Source of the DNA: Bacteroidota bacterium
GTDB taxonomy: Bacteria; Bacteroidota; Ignavibacteria; Kryptoniales; JAKASW01
Direction: 5' to 3'
Length of the DNA stretch: 64,000 bases
Assembly (NCBI GenBank): GCA_021812985.1
Contig: JAKAMG010000002.1
Location: forward strand, 159,879-223,878
In this document: positions 29,836 to 43,691 of the stretch, piece by piece
How positions within the stretch are numbered: position 1 is the stretch's first letter
Layout: each line of letters starts with the position of its first letter
The notes under the pieces: generated by a model
Seen by the model: only the letters and a program-made list of their open reading frames with translations
Told to the model about the DNA's origin: nothing
Database searches by the model: none
Translations under genes and position numbers: made by a program

Positions 29836-30465
29836 ATGAAAGCAGGGAGCTTGTTTTGTCTATCTTATCTTCTTCTCGCACTTTCTGCCGCGCACGCTCA
29901 GGAGTTCGGCGCGTTCACTTCATTTCAGCCGAACGAGATAACGCCCGGTATGTATGTGCGTTTTTCGGCGGAGAGGATATCATATCAGTGGAGCATGACA
30001 GTCCCTGTCGTTCTTCATGACAGGTATAACGGAGAGAGGTCGAACGTCTCCTATTGGTCACCGGCCATGGTCGCTCTGGGAGCAGTTGAGTATCTGGCGG
30101 GGGTGGAGCTTTCATCGGACTCTTTGCCAGGATTCCTAGGGAATCTATTCCTGCTGGCGCTTCCCGTCATTTCGAACGGCCAGCTCAATGTGAACCTGGT
30201 ACCAAAGTCTTCGCTCGACGCTGTCGGAGTGCAGGCGTCAGCGTTCATCGGATGGGACACGGCGCTGTTCGGGATGCGGGACATCAAATGGTTCCGGCTT
30301 ACTCCCAAGGCGGGGTTCGCATTCTACAAGCTCATGGGTTCGCCGGGGGACGAGACAAGACTCAGCCTCGGACTCGATGTTGGCGTGAAGCAGAACCTTG
30401 ATTCTCCGGAAGGAAGACGGAATCCTCCCGTCGGGTTCATAGCAGTCGAAGTTGGACTCAACTGA
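29836..30465 (+). CDS. Small exported outer-membrane-type protein
   Basis: A 209-residue protein with a signal peptide (MKAGSLFCLSYLLLALSAAH, cleavage after AHAQ). The mature part opens with FGAFTSFQPNEITPGMYVRF and shows short amphipathic strands ending FIAVEVGLN, a pattern of a small outer-membrane beta barrel. The centre (LGNLFLLALPVISNGQLNVN) is hydrophobic and may be a loop or plug. No family recognised. The GH31 glycosidase follows 74 bases later on the same strand, so the two are probably co-transcribed. Confidence 0.75.
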   Translation: MKAGSLFCLSYLLLALSAAHAQEFGAFTSFQPNEITPGMYVRFSAERISYQWSMTVPVVLHDRYNGERSNVSYWSPAMVALGAVEYLAGVELSSDSLPGFLGNLFLLALPVISNGQLNVNLVPKSSLDAVGVQASAFIGWDTALFGMRDIKWFRLTPKAGFAFYKLMGSPGDETRLSLGLDVGVKQNLDSPEGRRNPPVGFIAVEVGLN

Positions 30466-30539
30466 TGCCCCGCCAAGACGTTTTCCACCGTTTCAAAAGA
30501 GAACATGTTAATAAAATCGCGTCCACGAGGAGGCTTCTC

Positions 30540-32795
30540 ATGAGAACTCTCGGAGCAATCTGGATCCTGTTCATTCTGCTCCCCGTCGTGCATGGGGGGC
30601 AGGCGCGACAGCTTCGTTACTCCATCAGGGCGAATCCCGCGAAAGGGGATATAGTCATTACGCGTGACGGCAAGCCGATAATCGAAGTGGACAGCATACA
30701 GTTCAACTTCAACACACCTTCTCGGATGACGGTAGTGGAGCGGAGCGAACAGCGCATAGTGCTTGATCTTCTTTACAGGGACGTATGGGATCCGGAAAAG
30801 GTCAACACGAAAACGGATTACACGGTGGAGGTTAAGATAGACAGGATCGACAGAGGGTGGCATATCCATGCTCATCCTGAGTGGGCGCGGGACGTATCGA
30901 TTTATTTGAAGGACCTCGGCGGGCGCTATTTCGGGATTCAGGAAAACCTCGTCCCGGACAACCGGAAGAGTCCCGACATCACGGGTTCTGTTCAGAGCTT
31001 TGATGTGAAAGGAGAAGACTCCCGTTATCACGAGAACTACGCCTCAGCCTGGTCGGCGCTTTTCATGAACACGCTCGGTTACGCCTCCTTCTTCGATACT
31101 TTCGCCGAGGGAGAGTACCAGTTTGGCATGAACGGTAACACGGAAATCTATCATCGGACCGGAGTTCTCGATTGGTACATCTTCACCGGGAGAAATGGCG
31201 ACGAGATAATGAGGTCATACTACGGCGTTGTCGGGACTCCAAAGTACGTCCCGGCGTGGGCATGCGGCCCAACTATTTGGCGCGACCAGGACTGGAACGG
31301 GAAAGAAGATATACTGAACGACGCGAGAGAAATGGCGAAGCTGAAAATACCATTCACTTCGATGATGGTCGACAGGCCGTACAGCGACGGGGTCAACGGG
31401 TGGTCCAAGATGAATTTCGGAAAAGGATTTGAGCAGCCGGGGGAATGGATACACGAGCTGAACTCGGACTACAACGTAAAGTTTATGTCGTGGGTCGCGC
31501 CGTGCACGTTTGGAGACACGGGCACAGTGAAGCCGATGCCAGGAGACCACGGTTACATCGATCTCAGCAATCCCGCAAGAGTTACGGCATTCGACGATGC
31601 GCTAACCCGCAACATTTATTATTTCGGCGTGCAAGGCAACAAGATGGACCGCGCGGACGAGGCGTTCCCTGTCGAACAGGCGTGGCATGACAGGACCCCG
31701 CCATGGGAAAGAAGGAACAGATATATTTATCTCTACGCGAAGGTGATCGACTCGGTCCTTACGGCTAAATGGGGAAAGGATAATTTCAATTACTCGAGGA
31801 GCGGCATACAGGGGAGCCAAAAATATCTGAGCGCCCTGTGGGGCGGCGACTCTCGCGCGAGCTGGGACGGACTGGCGTGCAGCGTTGCGAACGCCGTACG
31901 GGTTGGGTTTATAGGTTTCCCAGACTGGGGGAGCGATGTCGGCGGTTATCTTGGCAATGCAGGTATGGAGCCGGAAGAGCTCTACAGCAGATGGCTGCAG
32001 TTCGGAACCTGGTCTGGACTCATGGAGGTGAAGCTAGATGGCGCGGGGGGACGGGGAGAAGACCGCGCGCCATGGCACTATGGGAAGAGTCTTCAGGATA
32101 AATTCAGGCTCGCCTGCAAGGAGAGGATGACGCTCGCGCCTTACGTCTACTCCCAGCTCAATACCTCCGCCGTGAATGGCGTTCTCATGAAGCCACTTGC
32201 CTATTCATTTCCAGATGACCGTTCGACTTATCATATCTGGAACGAGTATCTCTTCGGCAACTCGTTCCTAGTTGCGCCGGTCACTGAGCCGGGGAAAACA
32301 GCTGTGAGAATCTACCTTCCGGAAGGGGGTTGGTACGACTGGCACAATCCGACAAAACGTTATACGGGCGGGCGGGAAATAGAGTATAGACTTTCAGAAG
32401 ATGACATTCCCGTCTTCGTCAAGGAGAACGCGATATTCGTCACCGGTGAAGACTGGCTGAAAGGCAATTCCATTAAATGGAAAAGTGAGACAAATCCCGG
32501 GATCATTGTAAACGTCTTTCCGGGAAAGAAAGATTTCTCCAACCAATTCACATACGTAGACAGGTTTTCGGGAGACAGCCTGAAGGAGATCACGGTATCA
32601 CAGAAGAAGGGACGGATCTCAATCTATGTTCCGGGTCTGGGATGTGACGTGAAAGTGCTGGTCTACAACGTGACTCCAAGTGGGAGGGTAAAAGTAAACG
32701 GCGGGAGTGGAGAATACAAGACGGATGGCGACAAGCGGACTATTGAAATCGCGATTTCGAAGTACGAGCGGGGCGAGGTGGTTATAGAAAGGTGA
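30540..32795 (+). CDS. Glycoside hydrolase family 31 (alpha-glycosidase), exported
   Basis: A 751-residue GH31 enzyme. I start at ATG 30540, preceded by GAGGAGG at 6 bases, giving a signal peptide (MRTLGAIWILFILLPVVHGG). The frame extends 25 codons further upstream without such a site. The N-terminal beta-sandwich is followed by the catalytic barrel: GNKMDRADEAF gives the expected nucleophile Asp370, and LWGGDSRASWDGL gives the acid/base Asp437, followed by GFPDWGSDVGGY, a GH31 landmark. A C-terminal beta domain (GWYDWHNPTKRYTGG and after) completes the usual plan. It should cleave alpha-linked gluco-, xylo- or sulfoquinovosyl glycans in the periplasm; the specificity is not readable. Confidence 0.92.
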   Translation: MRTLGAIWILFILLPVVHGGQARQLRYSIRANPAKGDIVITRDGKPIIEVDSIQFNFNTPSRMTVVERSEQRIVLDLLYRDVWDPEKVNTKTDYTVEVKIDRIDRGWHIHAHPEWARDVSIYLKDLGGRYFGIQENLVPDNRKSPDITGSVQSFDVKGEDSRYHENYASAWSALFMNTLGYASFFDTFAEGEYQFGMNGNTEIYHRTGVLDWYIFTGRNGDEIMRSYYGVVGTPKYVPAWACGPTIWRDQDWNGKEDILNDAREMAKLKIPFTSMMVDRPYSDGVNGWSKMNFGKGFEQPGEWIHELNSDYNVKFMSWVAPCTFGDTGTVKPMPGDHGYIDLSNPARVTAFDDALTRNIYYFGVQGNKMDRADEAFPVEQAWHDRTPPWERRNRYIYLYAKVIDSVLTAKWGKDNFNYSRSGIQGSQKYLSALWGGDSRASWDGLACSVANAVRVGFIGFPDWGSDVGGYLGNAGMEPEELYSRWLQFGTWSGLMEVKLDGAGGRGEDRAPWHYGKSLQDKFRLACKERMTLAPYVYSQLNTSAVNGVLMKPLAYSFPDDRSTYHIWNEYLFGNSFLVAPVTEPGKTAVRIYLPEGGWYDWHNPTKRYTGGREIEYRLSEDDIPVFVKENAIFVTGEDWLKGNSIKWKSETNPGIIVNVFPGKKDFSNQFTYVDRFSGDSLKEITVSQKKGRISIYVPGLGCDVKVLVYNVTPSGRVKVNGGSGEYKTDGDKRTIEIAISKYERGEVVIER

Positions 32796-33272: not shown

Positions 33273-34016
33273 TCAGTAAAGCGGCAGCCCAATCGAAGTA
33301 GTCAGCATGAAACCACTATCGGCGACGTTCCAGTAAACCTGGCTGTTAGGAGTCGCCGGGTCCGCCGGGACTGTCTCCAAAGAGTAGGCGGACTGACCAA
33401 TGAAGACGCCTCGATAGCCCAACTCCACTGAAAGTTGAAGAGGGCCGACGGGAATCCAGGCACCGACGGTCATTTCCAGGTAAGGCCCGCCGGTGCTTGT
33501 CGACCTCGACCGGCTGTAGATGGTTCCCGCTGAACTCGGTATTTGGAGATTCTCGGTGATTACGGCGGAAAAGCTGGAGTAACCGGGCTTAACGAATGCA
33601 CGGATCGGGCAGCCGGCCACTCTGGCGAGCGTATAGCCTCCCATGAAAACCAACTGAGTGGATCTTACAGAGCCGTTTATCCTGAGGGTGCCCGCAAAAT
33701 CCCGATAGTCCGAGAACGCGGGCGAATACGAATAAGTTACCGACACTCCAAGCCACATGCTCTGGATCGGGCTGTACATGGCGCCGCCGCCGAGCTCTAC
33801 CGTGCGTCCGAAGTCGGTCTGGATTTGGACCGGCACCCCCTCGTCGCGGTAAGTCTGGAGAATATGATGGTACATCGTGCCGACATCGCCGAAGTTCATC
33901 GAACCGTACTGGACGGATATGAAGGGCTGCCAAAAATTGCGGCCGATATAAGTCTGAGAACTGGCATTATGGAAAGTGAGGGCCGAAAGAATCATGACTA
34001 GAGAAAGACGTTTCAT
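33273..34016 (-). CDS. Outer-membrane beta-barrel protein, last gene of an envelope operon
   Basis: A 247-residue protein from the ATG at 34016, opening MKRLSLVMILSALTFHNASS with cleavage near residue 21. The mature part has the strand-turn pattern of an 8- to 10-stranded outer-membrane barrel (WQPFISVQYGSMNFGDVGTM, SMWLGVSVTYSYSP, GPYLEMTVGAWIPVG, VELGYRGVFIG) and ends in ADSGFMLTTSIGLPLY. I prefer this start to the frame's first codon at 34046 because its ATGA overlaps the upstream stop (34013-34016), a coupled junction. No named family. Confidence 0.8.
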   Translation of the reverse strand: MKRLSLVMILSALTFHNASSQTYIGRNFWQPFISVQYGSMNFGDVGTMYHHILQTYRDEGVPVQIQTDFGRTVELGGGAMYSPIQSMWLGVSVTYSYSPAFSDYRDFAGTLRINGSVRSTQLVFMGGYTLARVAGCPIRAFVKPGYSSFSAVITENLQIPSSAGTIYSRSRSTSTGGPYLEMTVGAWIPVGPLQLSVELGYRGVFIGQSAYSLETVPADPATPNSQVYWNVADSGFMLTTSIGLPLY

Positions 34017-35689
34017 TGAGCAGCCCCCCCTATATCCACTATCCACTGATCGGATCCGTCGCAGAGAAATAAATAGCTCCCATTAGCGGATAGACCCAAG
34101 CCAGGCGTGTTCTCTCCGGTGAAAAGCCAGATCCTTTTCTGTTGCATAGAGGCCTGGTCGTATTCGACTAAAAGTGTACCATTATATTGGTAGGGATTCT
34201 CCACCAGATATGCCACATATACGTTGTTAGCATTTACTGCCAGGTCACCGATTCCGTCATACTGAGGCGGTGGGCTGGTGTTGTACGGGGTAGGCGGCTC
34301 GGGGGTTGATAGGTTCGATATGAACTTAAGGGTCTTGGCATCCAAGACGGCGACGTTCTTTGCACCATCAAGGGCGGCATATATCCGGGAAGAATTCCAA
34401 TCGACGGAAATGAAGTTGGGCGTCCACCACGCGGCCGCTGTTGTCCAGCTGTAGGAGGCAGTGAGGTTGACCGAGTCCCCGGCGACCGAAAAGAGTTTAA
34501 TGCCGCTGAAGTCTACGGCTATCAACGCGTCACCTGCCGGAGATAGGTTCAAAGACACGGCCTGCGTACTGAAAAGAGTATAGGTCTTCATAATGCTGTC
34601 TGTTGCGGCGTTATAGACGGTGAGCGTGCTGTTCGACGCAAAGTATATGAGGTTGTTTGGACCAACGGCAAAGACATCATAGGGCGAAAACGAGCGGATG
34701 GACGAAACCGTCTGAAGGGTCTTTGTGTCGACGACAGATATCCCGTAGTCGGATTTGTCCTTTACGTAAAGTTCTGATTTATCAGGATTCAAAACCCCTT
34801 TTCCCGAAGCAGCAGTCGTTCCAAGGTAACCTGACACGGCTTGTGCTGTTGGTGCCGTCGTCGAAACTGATATCAAATGGGAGCCGCCGATGTTAAATAT
34901 CACTTGACCGTTAACATCCTGCGCGAGCACGGAAGCTGTACCAAGACTCAGTGACGTCCCCACCTCTGTCGCAAGATCGGGGGCGTACGCTGTCGTGACG
35001 TTATTTGAGGCCCCGACCTGGTACTCCGCGCTGTCCGGCAATGAGATGCTCTCGGTAGTATCGAGGAACGTTCCGGGAGTTCTCTGGTACACCTTGAACT
35101 CCGCCTGCCTCTTAATATGTTCGGAGTCATAGTACCGTTTTATAATATCGTAATAGGCGAAATTGCCATCGCTGACAGGAGTCCAGGAGACCCTGAAGTG
35201 TTCGTTTTCATAACTCACGCCGACGTTCGTCGGAGCCGTCGGTGGAGTCCTTTCAAAATCGAGTACGATTGAGTACACGACTGTCGCGGGCGCCTCAGGA
35301 AGCTGAAGGAGGCCGAGTGTATCTCCTTTCTCTTGCACGCCAAACACGAACAGATGTTTGCCATCAGGCAAGCCATTTGTATTGAACGCAAATGTATATG
35401 GAGGACGCGTGACAGCTTCGACAAACTGGCTGTCCACAGTCAGCGTTACCTTGGTCACTGATGTATCATTGACGGCGGGAACAAAAGTGGGGTTGATTAT
35501 ACCGTCCACCTGCTGATTGTTTACGTAGTTGCTTACGTATCCCGCAACAGTACCGCTGGCCGGCGGATGAGCGGAACTATTCACGGCCGGATTCGGCTCT
35601 ATGAAACCGCACGAGGCGGAAAAGATTGTGACCGCAATTAAGCCCAGCGCGATGGCTAACCTGGCCTTGATTCCTTCTGTTAGTATCAT
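34013..35689 (-). CDS. Lipoprotein with Ig-like, FnIII and beta-propeller domains
   Basis: A 558-residue protein. The signal (MILTEGIKARLAIALGLIAV) ends at a lipobox-like FSASC, putting the lipid Cys at residue 27. Next come an Ig-like domain (about 60-145, TKVTLTVDSQFVEAVTRPPY), a fibronectin type III domain (about 150-245, PTAPTNVGVSYENEHFRVSW), and then a propeller-like region of YVTN-type repeats (about 280-555, DYGISVVDTKTLQTVSS, NLIYFASNSTLTVYNAATDS, NVAVLDAKTLKFIS). The composition suggests a protein- or glycan-binding surface scaffold. Its stop overlaps the next gene's start by four bases. Confidence 0.85.
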   Translation of the reverse strand: MILTEGIKARLAIALGLIAVTIFSASCGFIEPNPAVNSSAHPPASGTVAGYVSNYVNNQQVDGIINPTFVPAVNDTSVTKVTLTVDSQFVEAVTRPPYTFAFNTNGLPDGKHLFVFGVQEKGDTLGLLQLPEAPATVVYSIVLDFERTPPTAPTNVGVSYENEHFRVSWTPVSDGNFAYYDIIKRYYDSEHIKRQAEFKVYQRTPGTFLDTTESISLPDSAEYQVGASNNVTTAYAPDLATEVGTSLSLGTASVLAQDVNGQVIFNIGGSHLISVSTTAPTAQAVSGYLGTTAASGKGVLNPDKSELYVKDKSDYGISVVDTKTLQTVSSIRSFSPYDVFAVGPNNLIYFASNSTLTVYNAATDSIMKTYTLFSTQAVSLNLSPAGDALIAVDFSGIKLFSVAGDSVNLTASYSWTTAAAWWTPNFISVDWNSSRIYAALDGAKNVAVLDAKTLKFISNLSTPEPPTPYNTSPPPQYDGIGDLAVNANNVYVAYLVENPYQYNGTLLVEYDQASMQQKRIWLFTGENTPGLGLSANGSYLFLCDGSDQWIVDIGGAAQ

Positions 35690-35799
35690 GGTTCGTCCTG
35701 AATCGTGACTTCTGAAAATCTCATTAAATCTTTGAATCGCTCACGGGCAGCAAACGCATGTCGTGATCCGCAAGGTCCGTACCTGAATCCATTTCTTGA

Positions 35800-37242
35800 T
35801 CACGGTTCCCTGACTACTCTGAACCCGCCCCATTCCCCCTTCATGTCCGGATACTGTTCATAACGGCCGGTGACACCGCAATACTGGGGTTGCCACAACC
35901 AAAGGCCTCCCCGCAGAACCCTCTCCTGTCCGCTGGACGGTCCTCTGGGATTTGTTTCTGGTTGATTCGGATAGTCGGCATACCAGTCGCCGCACCACTC
36001 GGCGACATTTCCCGTCATGTCGAATATACCGAGTTCGTTCGGCTGCCTGGCCGCGATCCGCTCAGGCCCGCTGTTTGGGTCAGTTGAACCCACCCAGGCG
36101 ACATCTGACGCATTGTTGCTCCCGCTGTAAAAATAGCCGTGCGTCTCGTTTCCTCCCATGGCCGCGAACTGCCATTCGGCCTCCGTCGGTAACCTGTATT
36201 TTGTTGTCCCTTCCTTCTCGTTCAGATATGTAATCCACGCGTTGACGTCTTGCCAGCTTACGTTCTCGACTGGGAGACTGTCACCTGTGAAGATGCTTGG
36301 ATTAGCATCGAGAAAAGATCCGCCGTGCTGGTCTTTCCAGAGGACGACGTCCCGCCATTGTTTCTCAGTAATTTCACACTTCGAGATGTAGAACGTGCTC
36401 AGTGTGACATTATAGTTTGGGCTCTGCATGAGAAATGTGCCGCCGTCAACTCTCGCGAACTCCATCCCTGTAAATGTGTTGCCCGCCAGATTCTGCCCTA
36501 CGGTATTTGAGAGGGGCGATGTGTTGTGCGGGCTCGTGGCAAATACTCTGAAGTAGTACATGGAATCAGATGAGTAAACACCGGCAACATCTGCGGAAGT
36601 CACGTTCGCAGCCACCGCGGCGACGGAATCGAATGTGATGTCGTCTCGGCTTAACTCAATTGTGAATCCTGTCTGGAACGTGCTGTTGCAGGTCCAGTGG
36701 AGTGTGACCGTCGTCGATGTCATCGCATCTATGGTCAGATCAGTTGGGCTGTAGAATGGAACCGTCCCGGCCACAGATTCTGAGGGAGGACTTTCCTCCG
36801 CATCTATCATGGCGATGAGCCGGAAGTAGTATGGCTTGTTGGTCGTAAAAACCGTTGCTACAGTGCCGGACGAGCCAAAGGCATTTAGAGTGTCGAGGTC
36901 TTTAAAGCTGCCGCCGTCCGTGCTCACTTGAACAACCATCTGGACGGCCTTTGCCTGGTCGGAATTCGTATAGTTGATGTTATCCTTCCATTCTAGAGTA
37001 ATTCCTGTCTCGGTCATGGAGACAATCCGGAGTAGGGCGGGGGACGGCACTGACTTGTTGATCGGATCGAGTGGATTGTTGAACGTTACATTCCTGGAGC
37101 AGGAGATGGAGATAAACCCAAGTACCAGAGTGAGTGTGGCTGTGAGCGTTTGGACGACTGTCTCCCGAGAATGTCTCCTTGGCGCCGTCAGACGATGGCG
37201 CGAGGCACACACGCCTGCGGGAAGACTCTTTTCAGTTCGCAT
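35800..37242 (-). CDS. Lipoprotein with two FnIII domains and a SUMF1-like domain
   Basis: A 480-residue protein from the ATG at 37242 (36 bases inside the longer frame). The signal is long (MRTEKSLPAGVCASRHRLTA and on) and ends at lipobox FISISC. Two FnIII-like domains (about 70-155 and 165-250) lead to a C-terminal formylglycine-generating-enzyme-like (SUMF1/EgtB) fold from about 255, with ITEKQWRDV, VENVSWQDVNAWITYLNEKE, YRLPTEAEWQFAAMGG, DMTGNVAEWCGDWY and GGFRVV. The final segment QYCGVTGRYEQYPDMKGEWG keeps one Cys where true formylglycine enzymes use a Cys pair, so catalysis of sulfatase maturation is doubtful. The start overlaps the end of the upstream gene. Confidence 0.85.
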   Translation of the reverse strand: MRTEKSLPAGVCASRHRLTAPRRHSRETVVQTLTATLTLVLGFISISCSRNVTFNNPLDPINKSVPSPALLRIVSMTETGITLEWKDNINYTNSDQAKAVQMVVQVSTDGGSFKDLDTLNAFGSSGTVATVFTTNKPYYFRLIAMIDAEESPPSESVAGTVPFYSPTDLTIDAMTSTTVTLHWTCNSTFQTGFTIELSRDDITFDSVAAVAANVTSADVAGVYSSDSMYYFRVFATSPHNTSPLSNTVGQNLAGNTFTGMEFARVDGGTFLMQSPNYNVTLSTFYISKCEITEKQWRDVVLWKDQHGGSFLDANPSIFTGDSLPVENVSWQDVNAWITYLNEKEGTTKYRLPTEAEWQFAAMGGNETHGYFYSGSNNASDVAWVGSTDPNSGPERIAARQPNELGIFDMTGNVAEWCGDWYADYPNQPETNPRGPSSGQERVLRGGLWLWQPQYCGVTGRYEQYPDMKGEWGGFRVVREP

Positions 37243-37987
37243 AAGTTGACTCGATGATCCAGGATACAAGAAATCCACCCAGGCCGGAGAACGAGATCGC
37301 CGACGAAGCCGTGTATAAGGTTTGGCTTAACGCGACGCTCTGCCTGGCATCGACCGCCGCGGATGGCGTCAACGCATTTTGGTATCTGTGCGAGAAGTAG
37401 GTTATCCTGCTCTGGAAAAGGATGGCGGCCAGGCCGGCACCAGCGGCTATACCGGCGCTTATCCACTTGTACTTCCTCCATTGTCTTCGTTTCATCCGGA
37501 GATATCTGAGCGAGAGCAGATTGATGGAAATGTTGTGAGGGACGGTATCGTCAATTCTGGCTGACTGAATCGCGCCCCTGAAGCCGGGAGCTGTCGCCAA
37601 GATGTCATAATCACCATGGAACAGCATCAGGGACAAAGGAGCGTTCCATGTCCCGAGTGTATCGGGCGGAAGTTCCGTCTCTGTGGAAGCGTGCGGCGCG
37701 AGCAATATGCTGCTCTTCTTCACTATCGTGATAGCTCCGTTTCTCGCGGCGGCAGGAGTCAATACAATTCTTACTCTAATTGGCAGGTTTAATGAGAGCG
37801 AATCGAGTGGACGCTGTGATGCTATGTTCGACGAGGTATCTGAGAAGAAAATACCGGCAGGGGGAATCGTGGACGGAGCATGACGAGGAGAGTGGAAACC
37901 AGACGGTTTTCCGAACGCGTTGGAGGACAGAAATCCAACAATGAACAGCGCGGCTATTGACAATCGACTGAGGCGCACCCCCATCAT
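37232..37987 (-). CDS. PEGA-like exported protein with C-terminal membrane helices
   Basis: A 251-residue protein, first gene of a four-gene leftward operon. A signal peptide (MMGVRLSRLSIAALFIVGFL) precedes a Pro/Ser-rich stretch and a beta-rich domain (about 65-165) of PEGA-like look (GTWNAPLSLMLFHGDYDILA, TAPGFRGAIQSARIDD). A basic segment (LRYLRMKRRQWRKYKW) leads into two hydrophobic helices (about 178-192 and 225-245, SAISFSGLGGFLVSWI). It therefore seems anchored in the inner membrane with its domain outside. Its stop overlaps the next gene's start by 11 bases. I do not recognise a family. Confidence 0.7.
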   Translation of the reverse strand: MMGVRLSRLSIAALFIVGFLSSNAFGKPSGFHSPRHAPSTIPPAGIFFSDTSSNIASQRPLDSLSLNLPIRVRIVLTPAAARNGAITIVKKSSILLAPHASTETELPPDTLGTWNAPLSLMLFHGDYDILATAPGFRGAIQSARIDDTVPHNISINLLSLRYLRMKRRQWRKYKWISAGIAAGAGLAAILFQSRITYFSHRYQNALTPSAAVDARQSVALSQTLYTASSAISFSGLGGFLVSWIIESTYAN

Positions 37988-38122: not shown

Positions 38123-38704
38123 CTACTTCACTGCGGCAAAAGCGATCGCGTCTTCAGACCAGTCGGGGGAACTCTCTATCGCATTCATTATATCGTCAGG
38201 GTTAGATACGACCGTCCACATCTTCCGGTGTGATTCGGACATGAATCTTTCCCTGATACTCTTTTCCAGCATCTCGATGAGGGGATCGTAATAATTTTCT
38301 ATATTCATGATTATGATTGGCTTCGTGTAGAGTCCGAGCCGTTTGAGAGATATGGCCTCGAGAAGTTCCTCAAACGTTCCGCTTCCGCCCGGAAGCGCTA
38401 TAACCGCGTCTGTCCCTTCGAGCAGCTTTTTCTTCCTCTCATGCATATCGGCGACGACATGTATCTCCTTGAGTTCCTTATGCTGCCATTCGACTTCCGT
38501 CATGAATTTCGGAATGATGCCCACGACCTTACCCCCGCGCTTAAGCGCCGTATCAGCGATGCGCCCCATCAGTCCTACCGCGCCACCCCCGTATACAATT
38601 GTAACGTCGTGCGACACGAGCTGCGCCGCAATCTTTTCGGCGGCTTGAAAATAAGATTCATCAACCCTGGTGCTGGATGCACAGTAAACACATATTCGCT
38701 TCAT
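38123..38704 (-). CDS. LOG family (TIGR00730) nucleotide phosphoribohydrolase
   Basis: A 193-residue Rossmann-fold protein of the LOG/YvdD group, known from plants and some bacteria to release the free base from cytokinin or purine nucleoside monophosphates. It opens MKRICVYCASSTRVDESYFQ and has the binding motif ALPGGSGTFEELLEAI, with a YGGGAVGLMGRIADTAL segment. I start at the ATG at 38704, the normal family N-terminus; the frame continues 19 codons up to GTG at 38761, where GTGA overlaps the stop of the upstream gene. Either is possible, and the chosen ATG has no strong ribosome-binding site. Confidence 0.88.
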   Translation of the reverse strand: MKRICVYCASSTRVDESYFQAAEKIAAQLVSHDVTIVYGGGAVGLMGRIADTALKRGGKVVGIIPKFMTEVEWQHKELKEIHVVADMHERKKKLLEGTDAVIALPGGSGTFEELLEAISLKRLGLYTKPIIIMNIENYYDPLIEMLEKSIRERFMSESHRKMWTVVSNPDDIMNAIESSPDWSEDAIAFAAVK

Positions 38705-38757
38705 CTCATTGGTTCTTTCACTAAATGTTTCCTTAATGATCCATCTTCTCAAAAGTG

Positions 38758-39252
38758 TCACTGGTTAGAATAATATCTTCCGATGATGAATGAAAGCGGA
38801 AGTCCGATGCACAAAACGAGGAATGAGGCCGCGATCAATTCACGGCCGAAGTAAAATGGAGCGTGGTTGACGCGGCTCAAGGGGAGGACGATGAGATTCA
38901 TCACGAACCAGACGAGTATTCCATATGTGACCGCGACAGCGAAGACGTTTCTGAGCCGGGCAAGGATGCGGGGATAAATGAGGAAGAAGACAATCGTCCA
39001 GACGAGTGCGATGGCAAAATGGAATGCAAGGCCGAGAGCCGCCGTCATGGCCCCGCCCGAAAACGCCTTATCGCCGAGGACCCCGCTCGCGATGTTCTGG
39101 TACAGCAGTATGAGCCTGAACCTGAAAGCAAGAGGGTAATAGAGGGACGCAGCTGTAATGTCCAGCGTCCCGGCAACAAGCCATGCGAATACGATCGTGA
39201 CAAATGCCCGCCGCTTATTGGTCGGTACGGGTGGAGTAGTGTTTTCATGCAT
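38758..39252 (-). CDS. Four-helix inner-membrane protein
   Basis: A 164-residue membrane protein. Hydrophobic segments lie at about 18-36 (VTIVFAWLVAGTLDITAASL), 67-98 (AMTAALGLAFHFAIALVWTI), 105-125 and 132-158. The motif AGTLDI and the VVFF-rich helices look like the DUF1440/YagU-type or similar small membrane families of Bacteroidota, but I cannot settle on one. Its function is unknown. It lies between the TMEM175-like channel and the LOG protein on the same strand, with 47 bases to the former. Confidence 0.75.
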   Translation of the reverse strand: MHENTTPPVPTNKRRAFVTIVFAWLVAGTLDITAASLYYPLAFRFRLILLYQNIASGVLGDKAFSGGAMTAALGLAFHFAIALVWTIVFFLIYPRILARLRNVFAVAVTYGILVWFVMNLIVLPLSRVNHAPFYFGRELIAASFLVLCIGLPLSFIIGRYYSNQ

Positions 39253-41171: not shown

Positions 41172-43691
41172 ATGAAGATGTCGTGCATATCGTTCCTGGC
41201 CCTTCTGACGGGGCTTTTTGTCGGCTTCGGGTATGCCCAGCAGAATTCACAGTTCAGCGTAGAGGCCTACCAGGCCTTCCTGAGTTCCAACAAGAACATG
41301 ACGGCGGACGGGCTCATGTCTCTCCATCCGGCAGGTGTGTTCAGAACCGGCTTCCCGACAGATGTGTCGGCCGCCGCCTACTTTGACAGCGTTTCGATCA
41401 AGTACAAACTGACGGATCACGAAAAGACACTTCTGGCGAAGAACGGGTTCGTGGTTACCGAGAGGCTTGGCAACGGCAGATTCGGCGCCGCGTTCGGGGA
41501 TGTCTTCGGCAACGATCTTCCCGTCTTCATCTCGACTGACGCCATACTTCATTCGATTCACAAGTCCTATGACAACATCCTCAGGACCATAGAGGAGCGG
41601 ATGCTTATCCGGAAACTCGATTCTCTCCTCGCGTTAATGCACAACAGCCTGCCTCTCCTCGCCGCAAAGTATGAGTCGCGTTCGGAGATGAAGGAGATGC
41701 TGAACGATGTCGATGTTTATCTAACCGTGCCGCGCGTCTTATTGGGGACTCCGGCAAGGCCCAAGTTCATCTGGAATTCGGAAACAGTGAACGCCTTGTT
41801 GAATCTAATTTCGGCGGAGAAGCCTGCTTCATATCCTCTCTTCTCTTCCTCCGCAAGGGATATCGACTTCAGCCAATTCACGGTTCGCGGACACTACACC
41901 GAATCTCCCGAACTCGGCAGATACTTCAGATCGATGATGTGGCTTGGGAGGACGGAGATTTATCTCATCGCACCGGAAGGATTAAATTCCTCCGTCTCAA
42001 AGGCGGACGTTCAGAGGCAGACAATTGATGCAGTGCTCATAAAAGAGCTTGCCGATACGAGTGGAAGCGCGGGCATCGTCGGGGAGATAGACCGCATCCT
42101 CAAATTTCTCATCGGTGAATCAGACAACGTCACGCTTGCCAACGTGGAGTCAATCGGAAATGAGATAGGGCTGAAGGATGCAGGTGAGCTGCTGGACACG
42201 CTTCGCTGGCAGGAGTTCCAGGACGCGCTTACGGCCACTCCGTTCGCGTTTCAGAGAATCATGTCGCAGATACTTTACTCAGATCCCCTCAATCCCAAGA
42301 AGGTGAAGTCTGCCTCCGCATTTCTCCTCTTCGGCCAGAGGTTCATAATCGATTCATACGTCACGTCAAACGTGGTATATGACAGGGTCGCATCGAGAAG
42401 GATGCTCCCTTCGTCGCTTGACGTCCTCTTTGCGACTGGGAATGACGCCGCCGCTCAGCTTCTGAAGGAGGAACTGGACAAGTACGGATATTCGCAGAAT
42501 CTCGCCGCGCTGAGATACCTCATTGATTCATACGAAGAGGATTTCTGGACGGTGTCGATTTACAATTCGTGGCTGTCGGCGATAAGGGCGCTAAACCCAC
42601 CGGCCGACAGAAGCGGTCTTCCGGCTTTCATGCAGACCGCGGCGTGGTGGCAGGAAAAGATGAATACCCAGCTCGCGTCATGGGCGCAGCTCCGTCATGA
42701 CAACCTCCTCTACGCCAAGCAGTCTTATTCCGCCGGTATTATCTGTTCATATCCCGCGGGCTACGTCGAGCCGTACCCGGAGTTCTATGACGCAGTCAGA
42801 TCTTATGCGGAGGTTGCCGCGGCCCAGTTCGGGGACCTGCCTCTCGGCGGCATTGATCTCGGTTCTTACTTCGCACACTTGAAGAATGTTGCGGATACCC
42901 TCGGGACCATAGCGAGGAAGGAGCTCTCGGATGTCAAGCTCTCGGATGCTGAGAAGCTTTTCATTCAGGGGGTTCTGTATGCGACTCAGATGTGTGGACC
43001 CTCGTATGACGGGTGGTATCCTCGACTCTTCTACGGGGGGGAAGGCCTTACGGAGTCCGACATGGTGGTTGCGGATATTCACACCGCTCCTACGGATGAG
43101 CACGGTACACCTGTCGGCTGGGTGCTCCACGTTGGGACGGGGCCTGTCAACATGGCCATAGTTGTAACTTCGCTTCCCGGCGAGAAGCTAACCGCGTTCG
43201 TTGGGCCGGTCCTCAGCTACTACGAGCATCTTAGCACCGGATTCAAGCGTCTGACAGACGAGGAATGGAAGACGGAGTACGCACTGGCACCGTCGCTCAG
43301 GCCTTCGTTCGTTAACCTCTATTTAGCGAATACTCTTGGGAACTCGAGAGGGGAAGGGGCTTCACTTCTGACGTCGGCAAATGGTGAGACGAGCTCCCCT
43401 TCAGAGCGGCTCCTATTATCGCAGAACTATCCCAACCCATTCAACTCAACTACTACTATTGCCTTCACAATACCGCGAGGGCTTTCACAATCATTCGCTG
43501 ATATATCGGTGTATGACATCAGCGGCCGGCTGGTCAAACGGATCTTCTCCGGGCGGCTTACGGCCGGTAACTATACCGTGAGATGGGATGGGAAGGACGA
43601 CCGCGGGGCATACGTGGCGAGCGGAGTTTACATTTATAAGCTGACTTCGGAAGGGAGAATGGCCTCAGGCAAAGTTGTCCTCATCAAGTGA
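41172..43691 (+). CDS. DUF3160 secreted protein with type IX sorting domain
   Basis: An 839-residue exported protein. The signal peptide (MKMSCISFLALLTGLFVGFG, cleavage near residue 22 after YAQ) is followed by the DUF3160 domain (about 60-720), with GFVVTERLGNGRFG, FISTDAILHSIHKSYDNILR, FMQTAAWWQEKMNTQLASWA and HTAPTDEHGTPVGWVLHVGT. The tail (about 740-839) opens with LLLSQNYPNPFNSTTTIAF and ends YTVRWDGKDDRGAYVASGVY and SGKVVLIK, the type A sorting domain of the type IX secretion system. So it is probably secreted across the outer membrane and anchored at the surface. DUF3160 has no settled function. An AAAGGAGGGT lies before the ATG. Confidence 0.92.
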   Translation: MKMSCISFLALLTGLFVGFGYAQQNSQFSVEAYQAFLSSNKNMTADGLMSLHPAGVFRTGFPTDVSAAAYFDSVSIKYKLTDHEKTLLAKNGFVVTERLGNGRFGAAFGDVFGNDLPVFISTDAILHSIHKSYDNILRTIEERMLIRKLDSLLALMHNSLPLLAAKYESRSEMKEMLNDVDVYLTVPRVLLGTPARPKFIWNSETVNALLNLISAEKPASYPLFSSSARDIDFSQFTVRGHYTESPELGRYFRSMMWLGRTEIYLIAPEGLNSSVSKADVQRQTIDAVLIKELADTSGSAGIVGEIDRILKFLIGESDNVTLANVESIGNEIGLKDAGELLDTLRWQEFQDALTATPFAFQRIMSQILYSDPLNPKKVKSASAFLLFGQRFIIDSYVTSNVVYDRVASRRMLPSSLDVLFATGNDAAAQLLKEELDKYGYSQNLAALRYLIDSYEEDFWTVSIYNSWLSAIRALNPPADRSGLPAFMQTAAWWQEKMNTQLASWAQLRHDNLLYAKQSYSAGIICSYPAGYVEPYPEFYDAVRSYAEVAAAQFGDLPLGGIDLGSYFAHLKNVADTLGTIARKELSDVKLSDAEKLFIQGVLYATQMCGPSYDGWYPRLFYGGEGLTESDMVVADIHTAPTDEHGTPVGWVLHVGTGPVNMAIVVTSLPGEKLTAFVGPVLSYYEHLSTGFKRLTDEEWKTEYALAPSLRPSFVNLYLANTLGNSRGEGASLLTSANGETSSPSERLLLSQNYPNPFNSTTTIAFTIPRGLSQSFADISVYDISGRLVKRIFSGRLTAGNYTVRWDGKDDRGAYVASGVYIYKLTSEGRMASGKVVLIK

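Follow-up and report, generated by a model that had tools for sequence, protein, structure and literature searches.

The four leftward genes at positions 33273-37987 of the window, that is, of the whole 64,000-nucleotide stretch of an Ignavibacteria genome (3.5 Mb, 98.95% complete) analysed here, are two independently conserved and mostly overlapping gene pairs. Module A comprises an exported PEGA-family protein (A1) and an FnIII lipoprotein (A2), and module B an Ig-FnIII-beta-propeller lipoprotein (B1) and an outer-membrane beta-barrel (B2). An earlier reading of the sequence alone had taken the four as one operon whose products could form an envelope-spanning assembly. A single fixed four-component system is not supported, as relatives carry two separable pairs that usually lie apart and in which the SUMF1 head of A2 is replaced.

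Organization of the gene cluster

All four open reading frames, and the features within them described below, are on the minus strand, at the coordinates given by the sequence-only reading. Its description of the junctions was also accurate: A1 and A2 overlap by 11 bases (37232-37242), B1 and B2 share an ATGA overlap (34013-34016), and a 110-base gap (35690-35799) separates the two pairs. A1 (37232-37987) encodes 251 residues with a signal peptide, one degenerate PEGA domain and a C-terminal hydrophobic hairpin, while A2 (35800-37242; 480 residues) is an FnIII lipoprotein ending in a SUMF1 (FGE-sulfatase) head. B1 (34013-35689) and B2 (33273-34016) encode 558 and 247 residues, respectively. 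Export or lipidation signals are present in all four products, as had been claimed. The ATG start was taken for B2, for which an alternative GTG lies at 34046, and the A2 gene has an in-frame GTG at 37278. SD-like sequences are seen ahead of three genes, as ggagg for the PEGA protein, agga for the propeller lipoprotein and aggggggg for the barrel, and none is obvious upstream of the FnIII gene. Translation may be coupled within the overlapping gene pairs.

The lipobox of a bacterial lipoprotein usually has an aliphatic residue at position -3, which is missing from both lipoboxes of the window (SIS-C and SAS-C), and that of B1 has no match to a strict lipobox regular expression. The lipoprotein Cys is invariant in 16 of 16 aligned B1 homologues, most of which have a canonical box. 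GC content across the cluster gives no sign of a foreign island. Upstream, on the same strand and 135 bp away, lies a LOG-type gene (38123-38761; TIGR00730, cytokinin-phosphoribohydrolase-like), and the operon might thus extend in that direction. On the plus strand, a GH31 glycosidase gene (30465-32795) follows a 209-residue exported open reading frame without a family (29836-30465), and the gene at 41172-43691, divergent from the cluster, encodes a DUF3160 protein (E 3e-162) that carries a type A sorting tail of the T9SS.

Conservation and linkage of the two pairs

Homologues of A1 occur at clear loci in 14 of 381 Ignavibacteria genomes; a fifteenth match, in G132, is a marginal fragment and stands outside this count. 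At 11 of the 14 loci the FnIII lipoprotein gene is directly adjacent and on the same strand, with the PEGA gene first in the window, G005, G233, G075, G310 and G336, and the FnIII gene first in G361, G104, G058, G367 and G187. The FnIII-lipoprotein profile matches these neighbours in other genomes with E-values of 1e-76 to 1e-18. Since it has no more than five matches per genome within the genus, the adjacency is far above chance. T9SS-tailed BNR/sortilin, VIT or FnIII proteins are also encoded beside or near module A at some loci (L163:9222-12434, L164:12345-14792, L165:12069-14906 and L170:10431-14999).

For module B, a search with the propeller lipoprotein recovered full relatives across the class, each followed by the barrel gene, and a search with the barrel brought the total to about 20 pairs, some of them from a second class of the phylum. 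The junctions are tight: in 16 of 18 clear pairs the two genes overlap by no more than 16 bases or lie no more than 38 bases apart, and six pairs share a 4-base overlap. Barrel matches in family f4 (L127, L130, L133, L135 and L137) were excluded as a distinct subfamily that lacks a lipoprotein partner; in five genomes this subfamily directly follows a replicative helicase gene (dnaB-like).

The two modules are joined in just three of the genomes searched, namely that of the window, G005 and G285. The expectation that the four genes stay together in relatives is borne out by G005, of the same genus, which has the same order, and by G285, which has all the classes of gene, but not by the majority of relatives, where the pairs are separate. 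The flanks in G005 differ from those of the window and, with names that we read off the sequence, are presumably lpxD/lpxA-like and panB-like genes upstream and a topA-like gene downstream. Within the genus, G001 has the propeller lipoprotein and barrel only (a 169-residue membrane protein that follows this pair, at L036, was considered as a PEGA counterpart and is not PEGA-like), and the set is absent from the other ten members, leaving cassettes in 3 of 13. In Melioribacter sp. G285, from another family, one strand carries two successive lipoprotein-barrel pairs, a PEGA-DUF5683 gene and an FnIII-WD40 lipoprotein gene, so that the modules are swapped relative to the window. The PEGA protein of G285 is not detectably homologous to that of the window, and this third joined case therefore rests partly on architecture. 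The doubled pair in G285 is a tandem duplication (L055:5462-10279).

Module A: the PEGA protein and the FnIII lipoprotein

PF08308 (PEGA) has no direct match in the A1 protein of the window. The assignment rests instead on relatives that align with A1 and carry PEGA domains, with E-values across the homologues ranging from 0.005 to 4e-53; the long members of the family have four to five such domains. Common to all members is a C-terminal hairpin of the form KWIS...SWxxExSY, which in A1 spans residues 175-245 (37253-37465) and contains two hydrophobic segments, as delineated by an alignment of 15 homologues and by hydropathy. The hairpin probably sits in the inner membrane, but the basic residues ahead of its first segment, odd if that side were periplasmic, make this placement less certain. 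The G285 protein, with PEGA (1e-24) and DUF5683 (1e-11) matches, has a two-segment C-terminus like that of A1 and exemplifies the PEGA-DUF5683 envelope proteins; homology of A1 to it was rejected, as a sequence comparison by hhalign detected none (probability 0.4%). In other families, PEGA genes lie next to genes for a protein of about 320 residues with the motif GGDNxPxxKxQI and for LPP20-like, MltC/SLT and M48-SH3 proteins (L171:2757-8673, L166:313-4582, L167:1375-4328 and L169:111-1798), possibly representing a larger undescribed envelope locus.

A2 has solid Pfam matches to FGE-sulfatase (E 6e-39) and fn3 (E 1e-7). The N-terminus is constant across the FnIII-lipoprotein family, with the lipid Cys followed by [FY]xNPxD (in A2, CSRNVTFNNPLDP at 37063-37101), and the heads are variable. 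SUMF1 heads occur in the window and G104, a Fib_succ_major head in G336, and WD40 heads in G005 (where the repeats take the place of the SUMF1 domain in the second gene), G285, G075, G361 and the g31 genomes G058, G367 and G187, that of G187 being assigned by sequence similarity. The G233 protein has no head. SUMF1 is therefore not a fixed part of the FnIII lipoprotein.

The SUMF1 head of A2 (35809-36450) is predicted to be a binding module. Membership of the FGE enzymes was judged by two active-site Cys residues (GGSYxC...YC), and A2 was rejected as such an enzyme because the pair is incomplete, the first being replaced by Trp and the second kept (RVLRGGLWLWQPQYC versus RVLRGGSYLCHDSYC). Lacking the first catalytic Cys, the head probably serves in binding rather than catalysis. 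Its closest solved relative is TvpA (2y3c; E 8.5e-26), a variable protein of a Treponema denticola diversity-generating retroelement (DGR). Despite this likeness, the head was rejected as a DGR target, since the host genome, at its 98.95% completeness, encodes no reverse transcriptase (RVT_1). The head also matches GldK and solved PorK chains; A2 was not accepted as PorK/GldK, as its 74.7 bits compare with a cut-off of 350 for NCBIfam TIGR03525.

Module B: the propeller lipoprotein and the barrel

B1 is weak in Pfam searches alone, and its identity was set through homologues. Among the window proteins, a Big_7 match (E 1.3e-4) falls below the Pfam cut-off. A profile of the B1 family finds WD40 and S-layer propellers, and the structure model of B1, of low confidence (pLDDT 65.4), matches YVTN/WD propellers, an archaeal S-layer protein (YVTN) and the leptospiral antigen Lp49 (3bws), the last among its best structural matches. 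Lp49, a lipoprotein with an Ig-like domain and a beta-propeller, as in B1, was not recovered by a sequence search of the PDB, and is not known to have an FnIII domain or to be coupled to a barrel gene. Mean Jensen-Shannon (JS) conservation among B1 homologues is highest in the tether that follows the lipid Cys (0.491; CGFIEPNPAVNSSAHP at 35564-35611) and lowest in the propeller (0.349). The propeller is degraded in G233, where the lipoprotein (L059:7617-8563) is cut short, a vestige of the last blade survives just before the barrel start, and a gap of 196 bases separates the two genes. In G564 and G735 the lipoprotein beside the barrel gene has no propeller and retains Ig-FnIII. These losses or absences make the Ig-FnIII stem the barrel's constant partner.

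The AlphaFold model of B2 has eight strands (pLDDT 79.5) and matches structures of OmpA, OmpW and OprG, the best being OmpA. B2 itself reaches 20.2 bits (E 7e-4) against OMP_b-brl (PF13505), below the cut-off of 28.7 that its homologue L140 passes with 30.9, and a PDB profile search with B2 gave nothing significant. B2 was rejected as a PorP/SprF barrel, with no match to that family and just the sub-threshold OMP_b-brl match. The loops of outer-membrane barrels are usually their most variable parts. In this family, the tip of the strand 3-4 hairpin (SPAFSDYRDFAGTLRINGSVR at 33663-33725) is the most conserved barrel segment, scoring 0.507 against a mean of 0.406 and 0.289 for loop 4. As both termini of such barrels usually lie in the periplasm, the modelled hairpin is predicted to be outside the cell.

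A proposed envelope complex and its alternatives

The analysis shows the gene pairs and how they are linked, their domains, the swapping of heads and a modelled barrel. From these we infer a barrel-lipoprotein complex of the Bacteroidota type that is joined to, and would display, a membrane-anchored lipoprotein whose binding heads are exchangeable. We hold this reading tentatively, at slightly short of an even chance. B1 would dock on the B2 barrel, with its post-Cys tether and Ig-FnIII stem probably on the strand 3-4 hairpin and the loop-1 helix, and the docked stem would hold the variable propeller off the membrane. It is the combination of conserved tether and hairpin with a variable propeller that predicts this interface. 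A1 would act as an exported PEGA stalk that links the complex to the cell, with its C-terminal hydrophobic hairpin anchoring it in what is probably the inner membrane, and A2 as an outer-membrane lipoprotein whose FnIII stem carries the exchangeable binding head. Modules A and B would most likely assemble physically into one envelope complex, its heads presumably facing outward and binding ligands in adhesion, ligand capture or sensing.

Docking of this kind has a precedent in the Bacteroidota BAM, where the surface lipoprotein BamH has a conserved N-terminus that inserts like a wedge between strands of the barrel BamG (PMC12578637). BamG-BamH-BamI likewise combines a barrel with lipoproteins bearing a conserved N-terminal tether, one of them the propeller lipoprotein BamI, and bamG2-bamH2 is a putative operon (PMC12578637). 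In contrast, BamG is a 14-stranded FadL barrel (PMC12578637), whereas B2 is OmpA-like and patchily distributed, and BAM has no PEGA protein. With the barrel modelled at eight strands, B2 and B1 were rejected as BamG and BamH.

Several other explanations overlap with the proposed complex, and the weights given to each are not meant to be exclusive. The complex might face the periplasm, the barrel being a small outer-membrane anchor with the lipoproteins on the inner leaflet and the PEGA stalk on the inner membrane, and so form an outer membrane-peptidoglycan-inner membrane tether or an envelope-stress sensor. For the surface export of lipoproteins, a rule of two acidic residues has been quoted (PMC12578637). 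The tethers of the A2 and B1 families are conserved, but their first six positions usually include only a single acidic residue, and as they do not clearly follow this rule the lipoproteins could face inward. The PEGA gene of G277 lies near LPP20, MltC/SLT and M48-SH3 genes, and PEGA number varies from one to five, which could set the length of a tether. An outward orientation accords better with the fast-diverging propeller, the swapped heads and a barrel hairpin that protrudes yet is conserved, and we consider a periplasm-facing complex rather improbable. It is plausible, if less likely than not, that the modules are unrelated envelope pairs that each work alone and adjoin by chance in a few genomes, with the 110-base gap splitting transcription units. 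They are indeed mostly apart, with the two on different contigs in both G233 and G310, and one genus includes G280 with B only and G361 with A only; yet they are joined in three genomes from two families, in both orders and with different flanks, and no terminator-like site is found on the minus strand of the gap. As the modules are usually apart, their joining may also serve co-regulation only.

A role with the type IX secretion system (T9SS) is unlikely, but draws on several observations. As regards the co-occurrence with type IX secretion genes that the sequence-only reading proposed to look for, SprA is encoded in the host genome and makes a T9SS very probable there. The modules could form a platform that receives or anchors T9SS-exported cargo, in which the SUMF1 lipoprotein would correspond to PorK/GldK, itself SUMF1-like, and the propeller lipoprotein to PorE, also a beta-propeller lipoprotein. 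The GldK and PorK matches of the SUMF1 head agree with this, as do the genes with T9SS sorting tails beside or close to module A in G233, G075, G104 and G058. PorP/SprF-like barrels anchor type B CTD cargo (PMC9143113), a precedent for pairing cargo with a barrel. Against these stand a GldK score far under its cut-off, a barrel without a PorP/SprF match, and cassettes too patchy in the genus for a core T9SS function. Additionally, the T9SS-tailed gene of the window is divergent and 3 kb off, and since T9SS cargos should be common throughout the class, their adjacency to module A is weak evidence.

Implications

Consistent with the sequence-only reading, a search confined to the open-access literature turned up no account of a system composed in this way. 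Barrel-lipoprotein complexes are already known, and what is new is this composition together with head swapping. In a bolder interpretation, to which we give little probability, the cluster would represent an undescribed class of modular surface receptors in Ignavibacteria and relatives, in which a PEGA-anchored FnIII lipoprotein plugs into a barrel-lipoprotein complex that receives or displays T9SS cargo. If so, head swapping would retarget one conserved envelope scaffold. Four unannotated genes are here resolved into two defined gene-pair families. Module B extends the Bacteroidota theme of barrel plus lipoprotein to a small barrel, modelled with eight strands, whose conserved surfaces predict a docking site. 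In module A, a single lipoprotein scaffold carries WD40, SUMF1 or Fib_succ_major heads, a variety which suggests that some SUMF1 “enzymes” in the phylum are binding modules.
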